Shown here one piece after another: positions 25,480 to 56,958 of a DNA stretch of 64,000 nucleotides. The position numbers were made by a program, and so were the translations under genes. The notes beneath the pieces are model-generated. The model was not told where the DNA came from and ran no database searches. It saw only the letters and a program-made list of their open reading frames with translations. Within the stretch, counting starts at the first letter, position 1. Each line of letters opens with the position of its first letter. This DNA is from Desulfobacterales bacterium (GTDB lineage: Bacteria > Desulfobacterota > Desulfobacteria > Desulfobacterales > JAHDSC01), in the NCBI GenBank assembly GCA_016931455.1, contig JAFGES010000054.1:62001-126000 (forward strand), read 5' to 3'.

Positions 25480-26094
25480 CTAAAAAAGAATTGCCTCAAG
25501 CTCCTTCAGGCTTTCGATATGATGATCTGCCGAAAGAGAGTTGTTTTTATATGCTACCAATGAGATACCCGCTGCTTTAGCGGCTATCTCATCAAGCTGT
25601 GAATCCCCCACATATATCGCCTCGTTAGGTTCGATATTAAAATGATTCAAAATTTTGATCAGCTGATCCGGATGCGGTTTAGGATGTTCAACATCCAGCG
25701 CACTGACGACTATATCAAAGCAGCCTTCAAGGTCGTGTTCAATCAGAACGTAATTCATCGTATCGGTCCTGTTTGTCGCGATTGCTGTTTTGTATTTCGG
25801 GCGCAATCTTTGAAGCAAAGGCCTTAAATAGGGCTCGATTTTCATATATTTTATAAATGGTATGTAGCTAATTTTCTTACAGTAATCGTTTGCTGCTTCA
25901 ATTTTCCGCCGATCTTCAAACAAATAGGCAAGAGACTCTTTTACAGTATGCATATGGGTATATGTAAACTGTTCAGGAGTCATAGCAGGTCGATCGAAAT
26001 GAGCCAGGATGTTATTATAATAATAGCTGTTTGCCTTCACTGAGTCAAAAAGAACACCATCACAGTCAAAAGCAACAACTTTGATATCCCTCAT
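25480..26094 (-). CDS. HAD-superfamily hydrolase (phosphoglycolate-phosphatase-like)
   Basis: 204 residues. The four HAD motifs are present: motif I AFDCDGVLFDS (nucleophile Asp, residues 8-18), motif II AIATNRTD (Thr/Asn at about 107), motif III Lys in HPKPHPDQLIK (about 136), and motif IV AIYVGDSQLDEIAAKAAG (about 158). A helical cap occupies about 20-85. The best comparison is with phosphoglycolate phosphatases and beta-phosphoglucomutase-like phosphatases; the substrate is unknown. Its start overlaps the stop of the DUF1573 candidate selenoprotein gene by 4 bases, implying coupled translation. Confidence 0.9.
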   Translation of the reverse strand: MRDIKVVAFDCDGVLFDSVKANSYYYNNILAHFDRPAMTPEQFTYTHMHTVKESLAYLFEDRRKIEAANDYCKKISYIPFIKYMKIEPYLRPLLQRLRPKYKTAIATNRTDTMNYVLIEHDLEGCFDIVVSALDVEHPKPHPDQLIKILNHFNIEPNEAIYVGDSQLDEIAAKAAGISLVAYKNNSLSADHHIESLKELEAILF

Positions 26095-26831
26095 GAATTT
26101 TGTTTTTTTCCTTTCTGTTTTTTTTCGAAAACATTACCGTAAACACTGATTTTGATTTCCGGCCGTATTTTGCTGTTTGTTTTCAATTCGATCGTATCAA
26201 AATATCGGCCCTTTTCTTTTTTTGTATTTTCAACGGTTAGGAGATATATAGTACCCTTTGGTTTTTTAAGTTCAGTTAATTTCAAGCGAATATTTTTGCC
26301 TTGTGTTGATTTGGCTTCAAGAATTTTAAAAAAATACTTTTTTTCAGGAATTATGGAAACTGATCTTACTATCGGCTGCCCGATAAGTCCTTCTAATTTT
26401 ACAAACTGTGGGTTGATGGTTACTAATTTTTCAACTTGTCCCGCAATGGTCAGACTGAAGTTCGGTTTCTGCTTGTCATTGGTCATGACGAGAATCGTTT
26501 TTTTGAGTCGTCTGCCACCATAACCGTTTGTATTGACTTTTATCGTTATCTTTCCCTCGCCACCGGCCGGGATTTGCCTTGTGTAAAAGGCAGCCGTGCA
26601 GCCTCAACCGGTTTTAACTTTCTCTATTTTCAAAGGGGCGGTGCCTTTGTTTTGGATAATATACTCATGGGTGATTTCAATGCCGTCTACAACCGGCTCA
26701 AAATCATAACTTGTTTCCGGTAAAATAACAGCTGGATAATTTTCGATTAGTTTTTCAGCCCCAGTGGCGACATTGATCAAAACACAGCTGCAAAATATAA
26801 ATAATAAGATTCCAAAAAGCTTTAATCTCAT
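26091..26831 (-). CDS. DUF1573 exported protein, candidate selenoprotein (UGA at conserved Cys)
   Basis: Two adjacent open frames join into one 246-residue protein if the TGA at 26606-26604 is read through. The frame is continuous, with no indel. The N-terminus has a signal peptide (MRLKLFGILLFIFCSCVLINVATGA). The DUF1573 core runs TSYDFEPVVDGIEITHEY, NKGTAPLKIEKVKTG, UGA, then GCTAAFYTRQIPAGGEGKITIKV. DUF1573 proteins carry Cys-Gly-Cys at this place; the paralogue at 56233 in this window has VCCGCEAKL. The UGA thus replaces the first Cys of CGC. After the UGA, bases +32 to +51 form a stem with a GGU loop at +40 to +42. This is SECIS-like but a little far, and a nearer hairpin lacks the loop G. 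The ATG at 26831 has a GAGGAG site. Confidence 0.65.
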
Positions 26832-26940
26832 TTTCACAACTCCTCTATTTAAAAAATAATGAAATGATAAGTGACACAATGCCTTTCTAAAATCAATTAA
26901 ATCTCTTCGGTTGTGGGGAAAGCCCATTATAAAAATAAAT

Positions 26941-27051: not shown

Positions 27052-29508
27052 TTATAGCATAAAAAAAGGATCTACATCCACAACAGTTTTGAAATGGTGA
27101 GTATTAAACTTCGGCATTCGGGTTGATAGCAATTGACGAATAAACTGATGGAGCGTTGTTGCATTTAAACCTTTCAAAAGGATCTGCCATCTATAGTACT
27201 TTGCAATTTTCGGCAGAGCAGCCTGAATAGGTCCGAGGATCTCAATACCTTCAAGAAAAGATGGGTATTGTTTTTGCAGAAGACTACACTGAGATCCAAT
27301 CTCCTTTGAAAGTTTTTCCGTCTTATCTTTATCTTTTCCGGAAATTTTTAGTTGGATCAATCTTGAAAAAGGAGGATACCGGAGTGCCTTTCGATAAAGG
27401 ATTTCTTGGTTGTAAAATAATTTGAAATCCTGATCTTTTGCAGATAAGATACTGAAATGTTGTGGATTATAAGTCTGCAAAATTACTTTCCCCGGGGCAT
27501 TGCCGCGTCCGGCCCTTCCAGCTACCTGTGAGAGCAGCTGAAAAGTTCTTTCACCGGCCCGGAAATCCGGAAAGTTCAGTGAGAGATCCGCGCAGATAAT
27601 GCCCACGAGCGTAATATTCGGAAAATCATGCCCTTTTGCAACCATTTGGGTTCCCACCAAAATATCGATCTTATGATTTCTAAGTTCTTTCAGTATCCGG
27701 ATTAAAGCTCCTTTTCGCTGCGTCGTATCATGATCCATACGGGCGACTCTTGCCTCCGGAAACAATGCCTTTAAGGCAATTTCAATCTTTTCCGTGCCGA
27801 CTCCCAGAAGCTTTATTTTAGATGAGCCGCACACTCGGCAACTTGAAACGGAAGACTTTGAGAAACCACAGAAATGGCATTGGTAGGCATGGTTTTTTTG
27901 ATGAAAGGTTAGTGAAATATCACAATTCTTACATCGCATAACATGGCCGCAAGCCGCACAAACCGGGAAATTTGCAAATCCCCTTCGATTTAAAAATAAA
28001 AGGACCTGTTCTCCACGATTCAAAGTCTCTTTCATTGCGACATGAAGCTCTGTGGTAATATGGCGATTAATTCCCCGGCTATCCCTGTATTTGCATAGAT
28101 CAACAACGTCAATTTCCGGTAAGGCTTGTTTATTCACTCGATGTTCTAGATTCAACTCGATAAATTTTTTTGTTTTAACATTATAATAGGATTGGACCGA
28201 AGGAGTAGCAGAGCCTAACAATACCACCGCATTTTGCATCTTCGCTCTTAACACGGCGAGATCTCGGGCATTGTAACGCAGACGGGTGTCCTGTTTATAG
28301 GATGTATCATGCTCCTCATCAACAACAATTACATCAATATGATCTAAAGGTGCAAAGACGGCGGATCTCGCTCCAATCACAATTGCCGTTTCCTTGCGCA
28401 TAATTCGTAGCCACTGATCAAAACGTTCACCTGCGGAAAGTCCACTATGCATAACAGCAATACAATCACCGAAACGGGCCCGGAATTGTCTTTCTACTTG
28501 AGATATGAGCGCAATTTCCGGAACCAGAGCCAACGCGGAATTTCCGCGTTTTACCGCTTCAGCAACGACATGCATATACACTTCGGTTTTGCCGCTTCCG
28601 GTAACGCCTGCCAGAAGAAAGGTTTTAAATCCTTTTCCTAGAGAATTGATAACCGTTGCAGTGACATTTTCCTGATTTTTGGTAAGCATTGGTGGGATAT
28701 CACGTGTAATCGGTTCACCGAACGGATCTCGGTAAGTCTCCTTTTTATAGATCTGAATAAATCCTGCATCCTTCATATAATTAATAAAATTGGATGATTC
28801 AGGAATCAATTGTTTCAATTTTTGTATAGAAATTTCACCATTGACCGCAAGGGTATCGATGATTTTCTTTCTGCAAGTATAAAATCGATCTTTGGGAATA
28901 TCTGATCGGATCAGTTTGATATAACGCTGCATTTTAGGTTTAATTGCGGTACTTTTTAGAGATAGACGCTTTGTTATTAAGCCGCGGATTTCCATCTTTT
29001 TAATCAACGCGTTTGGAACATCTTTATTATTTTTTTTGTAAAGATCTTTTAAGGAGCAGGATCTGTGTTTCAACTGCTGTAAAATTTCCCTTTCTATTGG
29101 TGTCGAAAACTCTGTTTGAATTGCTTGTTCCCCTTTTTTAGTAATGGCAATCGAAGCCGTATCATAAAGATTGATTCCACCAGGCAACGCACCTTTGATA
29201 ACTTCACCCAGAGGATAAATATAATAATCTGAAATCCATTTGAAAAAGGGGATCATCGATGCAGGGAAAAGAGGCTCTTCATCTAGAACATCAAGGATCT
29301 GCTTAATTTCTTTTTCGCAAATATTTTCAGAGGGACCAATGATATATCCGGTTACTCGACGACGGCCAAATGGAACCAGCACGCGTTTGCCTGGAAAAAT
29401 TAGAAAAAAAAGGCTTTTCGGAACTTGATAGGTAAAGGTTTTATAGACTGGAAGCGCAATAGCTACTTCTATATAGGGTGAATCCGATATCATTTTTAAT
29501 TGCACCAT
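27052..29508 (-). CDS. priA: Primosomal protein N' (replication restart helicase PriA)
   Basis: About 818 residues from the ATG at 29508. The 3'-DNA-binding domain is YIEVAIALPVYKTFTYQVPKSL...GKRVLVPFGRRRVTGYIIG. The helicase has Walker A AGVTGSGKTEVYMHV, DEEH box VVDEEHDTSYKQ and motif III LLGSATPS. The zinc domain has four Cys pairs (CAACG, CKNC, CHFCG, CRVCG). The motif V/VI region is GTQMVAKGHDFPNITLV and QVAGRAGRG. It reloads the replisome at stalled forks. Starts at 29586 or 29493 are also possible; 29586 would overlap the divergent gene. Confidence 0.95.
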   Translation of the reverse strand: MVQLKMISDSPYIEVAIALPVYKTFTYQVPKSLFFLIFPGKRVLVPFGRRRVTGYIIGPSENICEKEIKQILDVLDEEPLFPASMIPFFKWISDYYIYPLGEVIKGALPGGINLYDTASIAITKKGEQAIQTEFSTPIEREILQQLKHRSCSLKDLYKKNNKDVPNALIKKMEIRGLITKRLSLKSTAIKPKMQRYIKLIRSDIPKDRFYTCRKKIIDTLAVNGEISIQKLKQLIPESSNFINYMKDAGFIQIYKKETYRDPFGEPITRDIPPMLTKNQENVTATVINSLGKGFKTFLLAGVTGSGKTEVYMHVVAEAVKRGNSALALVPEIALISQVERQFRARFGDCIAVMHSGLSAGERFDQWLRIMRKETAIVIGARSAVFAPLDHIDVIVVDEEHDTSYKQDTRLRYNARDLAVLRAKMQNAVVLLGSATPSVQSYYNVKTKKFIELNLEHRVNKQALPEIDVVDLCKYRDSRGINRHITTELHVAMKETLNRGEQVLLFLNRRGFANFPVCAACGHVMRCKNCDISLTFHQKNHAYQCHFCGFSKSSVSSCRVCGSSKIKLLGVGTEKIEIALKALFPEARVARMDHDTTQRKGALIRILKELRNHKIDILVGTQMVAKGHDFPNITLVGIICADLSLNFPDFRAGERTFQLLSQVAGRAGRGNAPGKVILQTYNPQHFSILSAKDQDFKLFYNQEILYRKALRYPPFSRLIQLKISGKDKDKTEKLSKEIGSQCSLLQKQYPSFLEGIEILGPIQAALPKIAKYYRWQILLKGLNATTLHQFIRQLLSTRMPKFNTHHFKTVVDVDPFFML

Positions 29509-29564
29509 TGACTTTGCCGGCGTATGATAAATATTAATATTATTTATTTTGATCGGAGGTATAT

Positions 29565-29867
29565 ATGCATAACATTTCCAAACCATCCATGATTTTTTTA
29601 TTAGTTGCAGCCTTGGTTTTCGTTCCCTTCAGTACTGTCGCCATGGCAAACGAGATAAACTCCAAAAACGAAATGGCTGCGGAAAAAATGGCGGTTGATA
29701 TATTATTAGTCAGACCTTTTGGTATTGTCGCCACCGCTGTCGGAACGGTTCTTTTTATTGTATCGCTGCCCTTTTCAGCCTTAGGCGGAAATACACACAA
29801 GGTGTGGCAAAAAATGGTCGCAGAACCTGCTCAATATACATTTAAACGGCCGGTAGGTGATCTTTAA
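29565..29867 (+). CDS. Small exported or membrane protein
   Basis: 100 residues. A signal peptide (ISKPSMIFLLVAALVFVPFSTVAMA) is followed by a short linker (NEINSKNEMAAEKMAVDILLVRP), a second hydrophobic segment (GIVATAVGTVLFIVSLPFSALGG) and a tail with VWQKMVAEPAQYTFKRPVGD. I recognise the general look of a small conserved membrane protein in proteobacteria, but no function is known to me. The ribosome-binding site is GGAGGT. It is divergent from priA, with a start-to-start gap of under 60 bases. Confidence 0.75.
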   Translation: MHNISKPSMIFLLVAALVFVPFSTVAMANEINSKNEMAAEKMAVDILLVRPFGIVATAVGTVLFIVSLPFSALGGNTHKVWQKMVAEPAQYTFKRPVGDL

Positions 29868-55039: not shown

Positions 55040-56236
55040 ATGAAAAAAATTATTGTAATTTTACCTGCACTATTTCTGATCTATTCATGTACCACACTAC
55101 CATCACCCAAACCTCAATCAGTTCCTCCCCCCATGGAAACATTATCCTCTCCGGTTCTACCACCGGATCAACCGGTATTAACTGATCTGAGCAAAATTCA
55201 GCCGTCTATTGGCAAGCTCCTAAAAAATATTGCCGTTTCTAAAGCATCTTTTAATCCAAGCCGGCAAGAAAACATTACGATTTCATTTGACCTATTAAAG
55301 CCTGCCAAAACATTCGTGCATATTTATGACTCAGACCTTGGATTGATCAAAACTATCGGTTCGAATGGTTTTTTACAAACCGGTTCACAGTCGCTCATTT
55401 GGGACGGAAAGGACTTAGATGGTAGCATCGTTCCCGATGAAGCCTATTTTTTCATTATCGAAGCTGAAGATGAAACCGGCAACAAGGAAGTATATGACCC
55501 CACCATGTTCTCCGGCGGTGTGGAACACGACATCACCTCCGCTCAAGTCGATCCGCAAACCTACACCATCAATTATATTATGCCGGAGATGGGGCGTGTG
55601 ATGATCCGCATGGGGATTCAAAGTGGTCCTTTGATGAATCCGTTGATTGATTGGAAGCCCCGAGTAAAAGGAGCGATCACAGAATACTGGGATGGTAAAG
55701 ACAAGGACCATCTGGTCAACATTTATGAATCTCCTAACTTTAAAATGATCATTACTTATTTTACATTGCCTGAAAATTCGATCATTACATTTGGAAATCG
55801 AAAAATTGACTTTCGTGAATACAAAAAAACAGTGGCATCTGAAAGGCCCCAAATAGAAACCCCTAAATCATGGCGTCAAGGTCTTTCACCGCATTACAAT
55901 CTGCGAAGAACCCTAGACTACACACCCGATATCAACCTCGAATTTACCGGTAAAAAAGGAAACGATGATAATGGGTTGCCTATCCTTAACAAAAAAGCCG
56001 TCGTCAAAGTTACCCTTGGTGAAAAAGACCGAGCGATCTTCCAGAACAGTCAGTTTGAAATCTGTTTTTACCTGAACAAACAATTTTATGCCGAAGACGA
56101 AAGCGGGTACACCCCCTTTAACTGGGTTTGGGATCTCAACGATGTGAAAGCAGGTGAACATCTTTTGACCGTGAACATATCCAGCTTTAAGGACCAAATT
56201 GGTGTCATCAGCAAAAAGGTGAAGGTTGTCAAATGA
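55040..56236 (+). CDS. Lipoprotein with FlgD-like Ig domain
   Basis: 398 residues. A lipobox (LIYSCTT) places Cys17 as the lipid anchor, followed by a Pro-rich linker. The next domain (ENITISFDLLKPAKTFVHIYDSDLGLIKTI...QSLIWDGKDLDGSIVPDEAYFFIIEAED) is the FlgD-Ig/T9SS-like fold. The same type of domain closes the PKD protein at 44663. Two further strand-rich segments follow, ending in LLTVNISSFKDQIG. It is a surface or periplasmic lipoprotein of unknown task. Its stop overlaps the next gene's start by 4 bases. Confidence 0.78.
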   Translation: MKKIIVILPALFLIYSCTTLPSPKPQSVPPPMETLSSPVLPPDQPVLTDLSKIQPSIGKLLKNIAVSKASFNPSRQENITISFDLLKPAKTFVHIYDSDLGLIKTIGSNGFLQTGSQSLIWDGKDLDGSIVPDEAYFFIIEAEDETGNKEVYDPTMFSGGVEHDITSAQVDPQTYTINYIMPEMGRVMIRMGIQSGPLMNPLIDWKPRVKGAITEYWDGKDKDHLVNIYESPNFKMIITYFTLPENSIITFGNRKIDFREYKKTVASERPQIETPKSWRQGLSPHYNLRRTLDYTPDINLEFTGKKGNDDNGLPILNKKAVVKVTLGEKDRAIFQNSQFEICFYLNKQFYAEDESGYTPFNWVWDLNDVKAGEHLLTVNISSFKDQIGVISKKVKVVK

Positions 56237-56958
56237 TCATGGATATAAACTGGAAAAAGTCGGCGGTAATTCTGCTTGCAGTAGCAGTTATATCCGGATG
56301 TGCCGTAACACCCAATACAAATAAACGGGCTGGTCCAGCGCTCACCTTGGATAATGCCGTTTATGATTTTGAATATGCCGGTCCGACGCAAACCATTGAA
56401 CACGAATTCAGGTTCTCTAATACCGGAAAATCAGCTATTGCCATAACAGGCCTGTCAGTCTGTTGCGGCTGTGAAGCCAAGTTAACGACCACGCAACAAG
56501 AAGTTATTCCACCGGGTCAAAGTGGAACGGTTCTTGTCACCTGCACCCTGCCGCGATACGAAGGACCGTTTGAAAAGGTAATTACATTACATACCGGTGC
56601 ACCGGATACAGAGTCAATTCCCTTGTCCATAAAAGGTATGATAAAAAAAGATGTTGTTGTCATTCCATCTTCTGTTTTTTTCGATACTTTAAAAAAAGAG
56701 GAAACCTCACAAAAACGACTGCGGGTGCTTCAAATGTCAAACCATCGGCTGAGCATCAACAAAGTTGAAGCTGATCCAAACCTATATGCCATTGAATTTA
56801 CACGCTTTGATAACCGCAACCACAGAGGGTATGATGTTACTATAGAATTTTCGGCCAATGTGCCTGTAGGTATCTATAGTGATGTGATCACTATTTATAC
56901 CAATGATAAAAGAAGATCTAAAATTGATGTGCCTATCATTGCCCAAGTAGTTGAGTAA
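56233..56958 (+). CDS. DUF1573 lipoprotein
   Basis: 241 residues. The signal ends in a lipobox (AVISGCAV). The DUF1573 core runs AVYDFEYAGPTQTIEHEFRFSNTGKSAIAITGLSVCCGCEAKL, with Cys-Cys-Gly-Cys at the place where the 26091 homologue has Gly-UGA-Gly-Cys. It continues IPPGQSGTVLVTCTLP. A second Ig-like half (FFDTLKKEETSQKRLRVL...SDVITIYTNDKRRSKIDVPI) follows. It starts with ATG overlapping the upstream stop (ATGA). The function of DUF1573 is unknown; the CGC motif suggests redox or metal chemistry. The TGC codons here are the internal comparison for the UGA elsewhere. Confidence 0.88.
   Translation: MIMDINWKKSAVILLAVAVISGCAVTPNTNKRAGPALTLDNAVYDFEYAGPTQTIEHEFRFSNTGKSAIAITGLSVCCGCEAKLTTTQQEVIPPGQSGTVLVTCTLPRYEGPFEKVITLHTGAPDTESIPLSIKGMIKKDVVVIPSSVFFDTLKKEETSQKRLRVLQMSNHRLSINKVEADPNLYAIEFTRFDNRNHRGYDVTIEFSANVPVGIYSDVITIYTNDKRRSKIDVPIIAQVVE

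Follow-up and report, generated by a model that had tools for sequence, protein, structure and literature searches.

An in-frame UGA followed by a conserved two-hairpin RNA in a DUF1573 gene of the OS_HP2 family from a Desulfobacterales bacterium

The locus and its in-frame UGA

The window analysed here is a stretch of 64,000 nucleotides from the genome of a Desulfobacterales bacterium. An earlier note on this DNA had joined two back-to-back open frames into one DUF1573 gene and called it a candidate new selenoprotein. We verified from the sequence that positions 26091-26831 of the minus strand form one frame, with a sole internal TGA (26606-26604) in the context K-T-G-UGA-G-C-T. The features discussed below, other than those of the RNA, are as follows.

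25480-26094, minus strand: HAD-family hydrolase (PF13419, 4.8e-32), overlapping the stop of the selenoprotein gene by 4 bases (ATGA)
26091-26831, minus strand: predicted OS_HP2 / DUF1573 selenoprotein gene, 246 amino acids with Sec76, ordinary TGA stop at 26093-26091
26604-26606, minus strand: in-frame TGA of the U-G-C motif, assigned to Sec from the aligned codons in homologues
26757-26831, minus strand: likely signal peptide, about residues 1-25, a hydrophobic N-terminus that is disordered in the structural model
26840-26845, minus strand: GAGGAG ribosome-binding site, 8 bases ahead of the selenoprotein ATG, identified from the sequence
27052-29586, minus strand: PriA helicase, the upstream neighbour
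56233-56958, plus strand: DUF1573 paralogue with Cys codons (C-C-G-C) and a VISGC lipobox

The joined frame is a DUF1573 protein, as had been proposed: it matches PF07610 with an E value of 1.5e-19 and a score of 70.3 bits (gathering cut-off 26.1 bits). The coordinates likewise confirmed the 4-base overlap with the downstream hydrolase gene, and the ribosome-binding site deserves its description as good. The claim of a consensus promoter was overstated, since the elements TTGACA and TAGATA are present with 17 nt between them but fail a promoter scan, in which promoter-like sites were not enriched over shuffled sequences (7 versus 6.0 ± 2.5). The gene is a clean case of conventional gene calling cutting one gene into two.

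Among 55 long loci, the HAD hydrolase neighbour is kept in 35 and PriA in 26. PolA lies further down from the selenoprotein gene, and the neighbourhood of PriA, HAD hydrolase and PolA is conserved across many genomes. None of these neighbours points to a redox pathway, and the neighbourhood gives no functional clue.

The UGA codon in homologues and the selenocysteine machinery

Homologues were collected from genomes of the same order and phylum as the window (first set) and from named genomes (second set), and the codon aligned with the window TGA was read in each of them without assuming its identity. A single-protein query found no related loci; in the search for these, a broad alignment held no stretch conserved enough to serve as a query, and a narrower alignment succeeded. 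In the first set, which held 113 distinct homologues, the codon was TGA in 97, TGT in 9 and TGC in 7. Across both sets, 141 of the 159 distinct homologues had TGA, 9 had TGC, 9 had TGT and none had any other codon, so that the check for UGA or TGC proposed in the earlier note returned only TGA or Cys codons at the site. When 243 genomes of the order were searched, nearly all of the matches listed had one internal TGA. The residue ahead of the site is nearly always Gly in Sec members and more often Ser in Cys members. A phylogeny of 110 members requires no fewer than 9 switches between the Sec and Cys labels, and its strongly supported branches by themselves impose 5 or more. This indicates repeated exchange between Sec and Cys. 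As judged from these aligned sequences, conservation of the UGA is far from chance.

The genes selA, selB, selC and selD had been suggested as a check on the Sec reading, and the genome itself contains selA, selB and selD (SelA 609 bits, SelB 395 bits, SelD 380 bits) together with a tRNA-Sec (57.4 bits, loop CUUCAAA, anticodon UCA). This tRNA gene lacks its last 3' positions because the contig ends there; a genome of the same family (G001) has a complete tRNA-Sec with anticodon UCA. Some genomes of the order encode an additional SelB-like protein that exceeds the family cut-off (G014:C31, G016:C62 and G017:C16).

These observations bear on the possibility that a decaying Cys gene has acquired the TGA by nonsense mutation, or shows it through a sequencing error. 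A lone stop in a single draft genome would give that picture, but the same TGA recurs in 141 distinct homologues spread over dozens of families, with isolate genomes among them (Desulfosarcina alkanivorans and Desulfamplus magnetovallimortis, for example); the frame 3' of it is kept at 40-60% identity, and the RNA structure described below is conserved in the TGA members only. Disruption of the frame at other positions in homologues, which had been named as grounds against the Sec reading, was not seen, as they keep the frame and have UGA or Cys at the same codon. The tally of 141 TGA, 9 TGC and 9 TGT refutes an origin by nonsense mutation or error, to which we assign a negligible probability, and the earlier view that this is not a decaying gene holds. 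Reassignment of UGA is known from other lineages, and this precedent could suggest that the codon is read here as some other amino acid, or that it is passed by unspecific read-through. Against this, only Cys codons substitute for UGA, the genome has a full Sec system, and UGA serves as the true stop in 29 of 97 Sec homologues as well as in the window gene itself, making such a reading exceedingly improbable. Pseudogene, sequencing error and reassigned code were thus each considered and rejected for the window TGA.

Since only UGA or Cys codons occupy the site and the Sec machinery is in the genome, the gene appears to encode a selenoprotein and not a product of decay or error; we put the probability that this Desulfobacterales gene encodes a member of the known OS_HP2 / DUF1573 selenoprotein family at about 0.95. 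The frame matches the whole of NCBIfam model NF041425, 'OS_HP2 family (seleno)protein', with 157.1 bits (cut-off 100) over residues 37-134, and the U/C-G-C motif of that family was found in the 159 homologues with only Sec or Cys in first place. The family is listed as 'DUF1573 domain-containing protein, UGC' in PMC9312934 and PMC13188914, both of which give Zhang & Gladyshev 2007 as the source, and PMC2398784 includes OS_HP2 (pfam07610, UxC) among selenoproteins. According to the two former papers, which cite it, Zhang & Gladyshev 2007 discovered the family in an Olavius symbiont. In the Olavius Delta 1 symbiont, the copy (L134) shares this UGA with the window gene and is 51-55% identical. 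The window gene resembles the OS_HP2 / NF041425 family in domain, UGC motif, Sec position and host group, with no difference at the family level. The Sec part of the earlier claim is therefore strongly supported, but the protein is not new: its family was published in 2007 and has been catalogued since.

Several arrangements of these genes were noted in passing. Tandem DUF1573 genes occur as two Sec copies (L058) or as one Sec and one Cys copy (L128), and at L145 an intact Sec copy is immediately preceded by a broken Cys copy in frame pieces (about 1875-2690). Desulfamplus magnetovallimortis has a Cys form and a Sec form at separate loci (L192 and L199). In a Sec subgroup (L168, L178, L180, L183 and L189), additional repeats of the second Ig-like domain follow at the C-terminus.

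The predicted protein and its paralogue

An AlphaFold2 model, built from 52 sequences with Cys replacing Sec, has two beta-sandwich domains and a mean pLDDT of 88. Its best structural matches are Ig domains of the HYDIN/SPD-2 type, from proteins of cilia and centrosomes, as well as cadherins and the Porphyromonas gingivalis structure 2qsv; a sequence search of solved structures gave chance-level matches only. By this model the product is built of two Ig-like domains of the HYDIN/SPD-2 type. The first of them carries Sec in a loop, Sec76 and Cys78 being placed between strands 67-73 and 79-83. The alignment of 52 sequences keeps Sec76/Cys, Gly77 and Cys78 throughout; a few distant Cys homologues have Ala at position 77. 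The Cys form of DUF1573 (PF07610, represented by 2qsv) has the Ig-like fold in common with the selenoprotein. The aligned Cys homologues keep a matching motif at the site, C-G-C or C-A-C, and differ in having Cys in place of Sec and in lacking the two RNA hairpins.

The product is probably exported, and Sec76-Gly-Cys78 would either engage in a selenosulfide or coordinate a soft metal, so that a redox or a metal-binding role may be envisaged. An exported binder of mercury, copper or arsenic, as opposed to a redox enzyme, is suggested by the U-G-C motif, which is of a soft-metal type, by an Ig-like fold with no enzyme among the best structural matches listed, and by the existence of a paralogue with C-C-G-C. 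However, there are no metal-resistance genes among the neighbours, and CxC/UxC pairs are found in thiol oxidoreductases too. We regard metal binding as possible, though not quite to be expected.

The paralogue at 56233 has C-C-G-C with TGC at the site aligned with the window UGA, as had been described, and is probably a lipoprotein because of its VISGC lipobox. The signal peptide of the selenoprotein, unlike that of the paralogue, has no lipobox.

Two conserved hairpins downstream of the UGA

The least ordinary feature of the locus, and the part that deserves specialist attention, is a conserved signal of two hairpins in the RNA that follows the UGA (numbered from that codon).

26575-26592, minus strand: hairpin 1 (+12 to +29), without a conserved G at the loop start; from covariation and codon controls; proposed SECIS spacer
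26553-26572, minus strand: hairpin 2 (+32 to +51), with an apical GGU loop; from pairing and energy; proposed SelB-binding part
26562-26564, minus strand: GGU apical loop of hairpin 2 (+40 to +42); GG in equal-length homologues

Both hairpins sit where the earlier note had placed them, the nearer lacking a loop G and the farther having its GGU loop at +40. In the 85 Sec members of equal length, the core pairs of hairpin 1 run from +13:+28 to +17:+24 and hairpin 2 spans +32:+51. All 85 have GG at +40/+41, an invariance that by itself proves nothing because a conserved Gly codon begins with these bases. Controls for coding constraint were more informative. Paired cells in the Sec homologues amounted to 87% for hairpin 1 and 94% for hairpin 2, and fell to 51% and 65% when synonymous codons were redrawn from each gene's own usage; the Cys homologues gave 45% and 56%. 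Shuffling codons between sequences within columns lowered hairpin 1 pairing to 79% (maximum 81% over 200 shuffles) and weakened the mean folding energy of both hairpins, while hairpin 2 pairing barely changed (93%) because its columns vary little.

Covariation was assessed in 52 sequences, where two-sided changes were found in 42 cells, compared with 10.0 ± 7.0 in shuffled alignments and 6-13 when the pairing was slid. In hairpin 1, all five core pairs show such changes, +14:+27 being C-G in 24 sequences, U-A in 23 and U-G in 4. In hairpin 2, several members whose protein has Ser or Leu in place of Pro preserve pairing through a shifted register. The members with a 3-nt insertion (L028, L075 and L184) carry it inside hairpin 1. 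Judged by these alignments, both hairpins are conserved far beyond coding constraint and are lost in the Cys homologues.

Folded alone, the window hairpins have energies of -7.0 kcal/mol (hairpin 1) and -9.5 kcal/mol (hairpin 2). As free RNA, the window segment +1 to +57 has an alternative fold at -19.3 kcal/mol, 2.8 better than the two-hairpin form at -16.5 kcal/mol, which is favoured only if the first 9-12 nt are sequestered, as by a ribosome.

The bacterial SECIS model (bSECISearch, summarised in PMC13188914) calls for a small loop starting with G at 16-37 nt from the UGA; its limits are a loop of 3-9 nt, a stem of 4-16 bp, a G in the first two loop positions and an energy of -7.5 kcal/mol or lower. 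Hairpin 2 resembles this consensus in its GGU triloop, its 7 pairs with an internal loop and its energy. It departs from it in that the window loop lies 39 nt from the UGA, with an extra conserved hairpin between. The stem had been called SECIS-like, which stands for loop, G, stem and energy but not for position, the GG at +40 being beyond the range, as the earlier note had itself flagged: the spacing is 39 nt along the chain and comes to 20-24 nt only with hairpin 1 folded away.

We propose that UGA codon 76 would be read as Sec by SelB and tRNA-Sec, directed by the structured RNA immediately downstream, in which hairpin 1 is followed by hairpin 2 and the GGU loop of the latter is the likely SelB contact. 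Hairpin 1, which encloses mostly 16-20 nt, may fold that length away, and the GGU loop would then have an effective distance of 20-24 nt from the UGA, like the loop of a standard bacterial SECIS. In these DUF1573 genes the SECIS would thus comprise two hairpins, the first a folded spacer that sets the distance of the GG loop, an idea that we advance tentatively and at somewhat below even odds. Effective distances were computed in the 113 of 141 Sec members whose minimum-energy fold has both hairpins: with hairpin 1 subtracted, the loop lies 17-29 nt from the UGA in every one of these, as against a raw 39-43 nt. The 3-nt insertions inside hairpin 1, and the position of the GG loop in selD of this genome (about +21), also favour the spacer reading. 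Alternatively, hairpin 2 alone could be the SECIS, at a longer spacing, and hairpin 1 could slow the ribosome or be an independent element. By itself hairpin 2 does satisfy the loop, stem and energy terms, and a 2026 review (PMC13188914) notes that a subset of accepted bacterial SECIS elements breaks the model. However, the strongest covariation is in hairpin 1, and the effective distances just given also weigh against a SECIS made of hairpin 2 alone, which we regard as a real possibility if short of probable. Should the folded-spacer reading be true, it would account for one class of the bacterial SECIS elements whose spacing departs from the consensus. More than 100 natural two-hairpin variants with clear covariation offer a testable case for how SelB tolerates elements that break the distance rule.

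The papers on OS_HP2 that were examined, all later than Zhang & Gladyshev 2007, do not describe the two-hairpin RNA. A covariance model of the two hairpins, run against the window's own genome, retrieved only the selenoprotein gene (77.6 bits); the next match scored 16.4 bits (E 0.27), so the element is shown in no other gene of the genome. The selD gene of this genome (L213, C71:3948-4874) is itself a selenoprotein gene, with an active-site UGA (GAG-U-ASK) and a hairpin whose GG loop lies at about +21.
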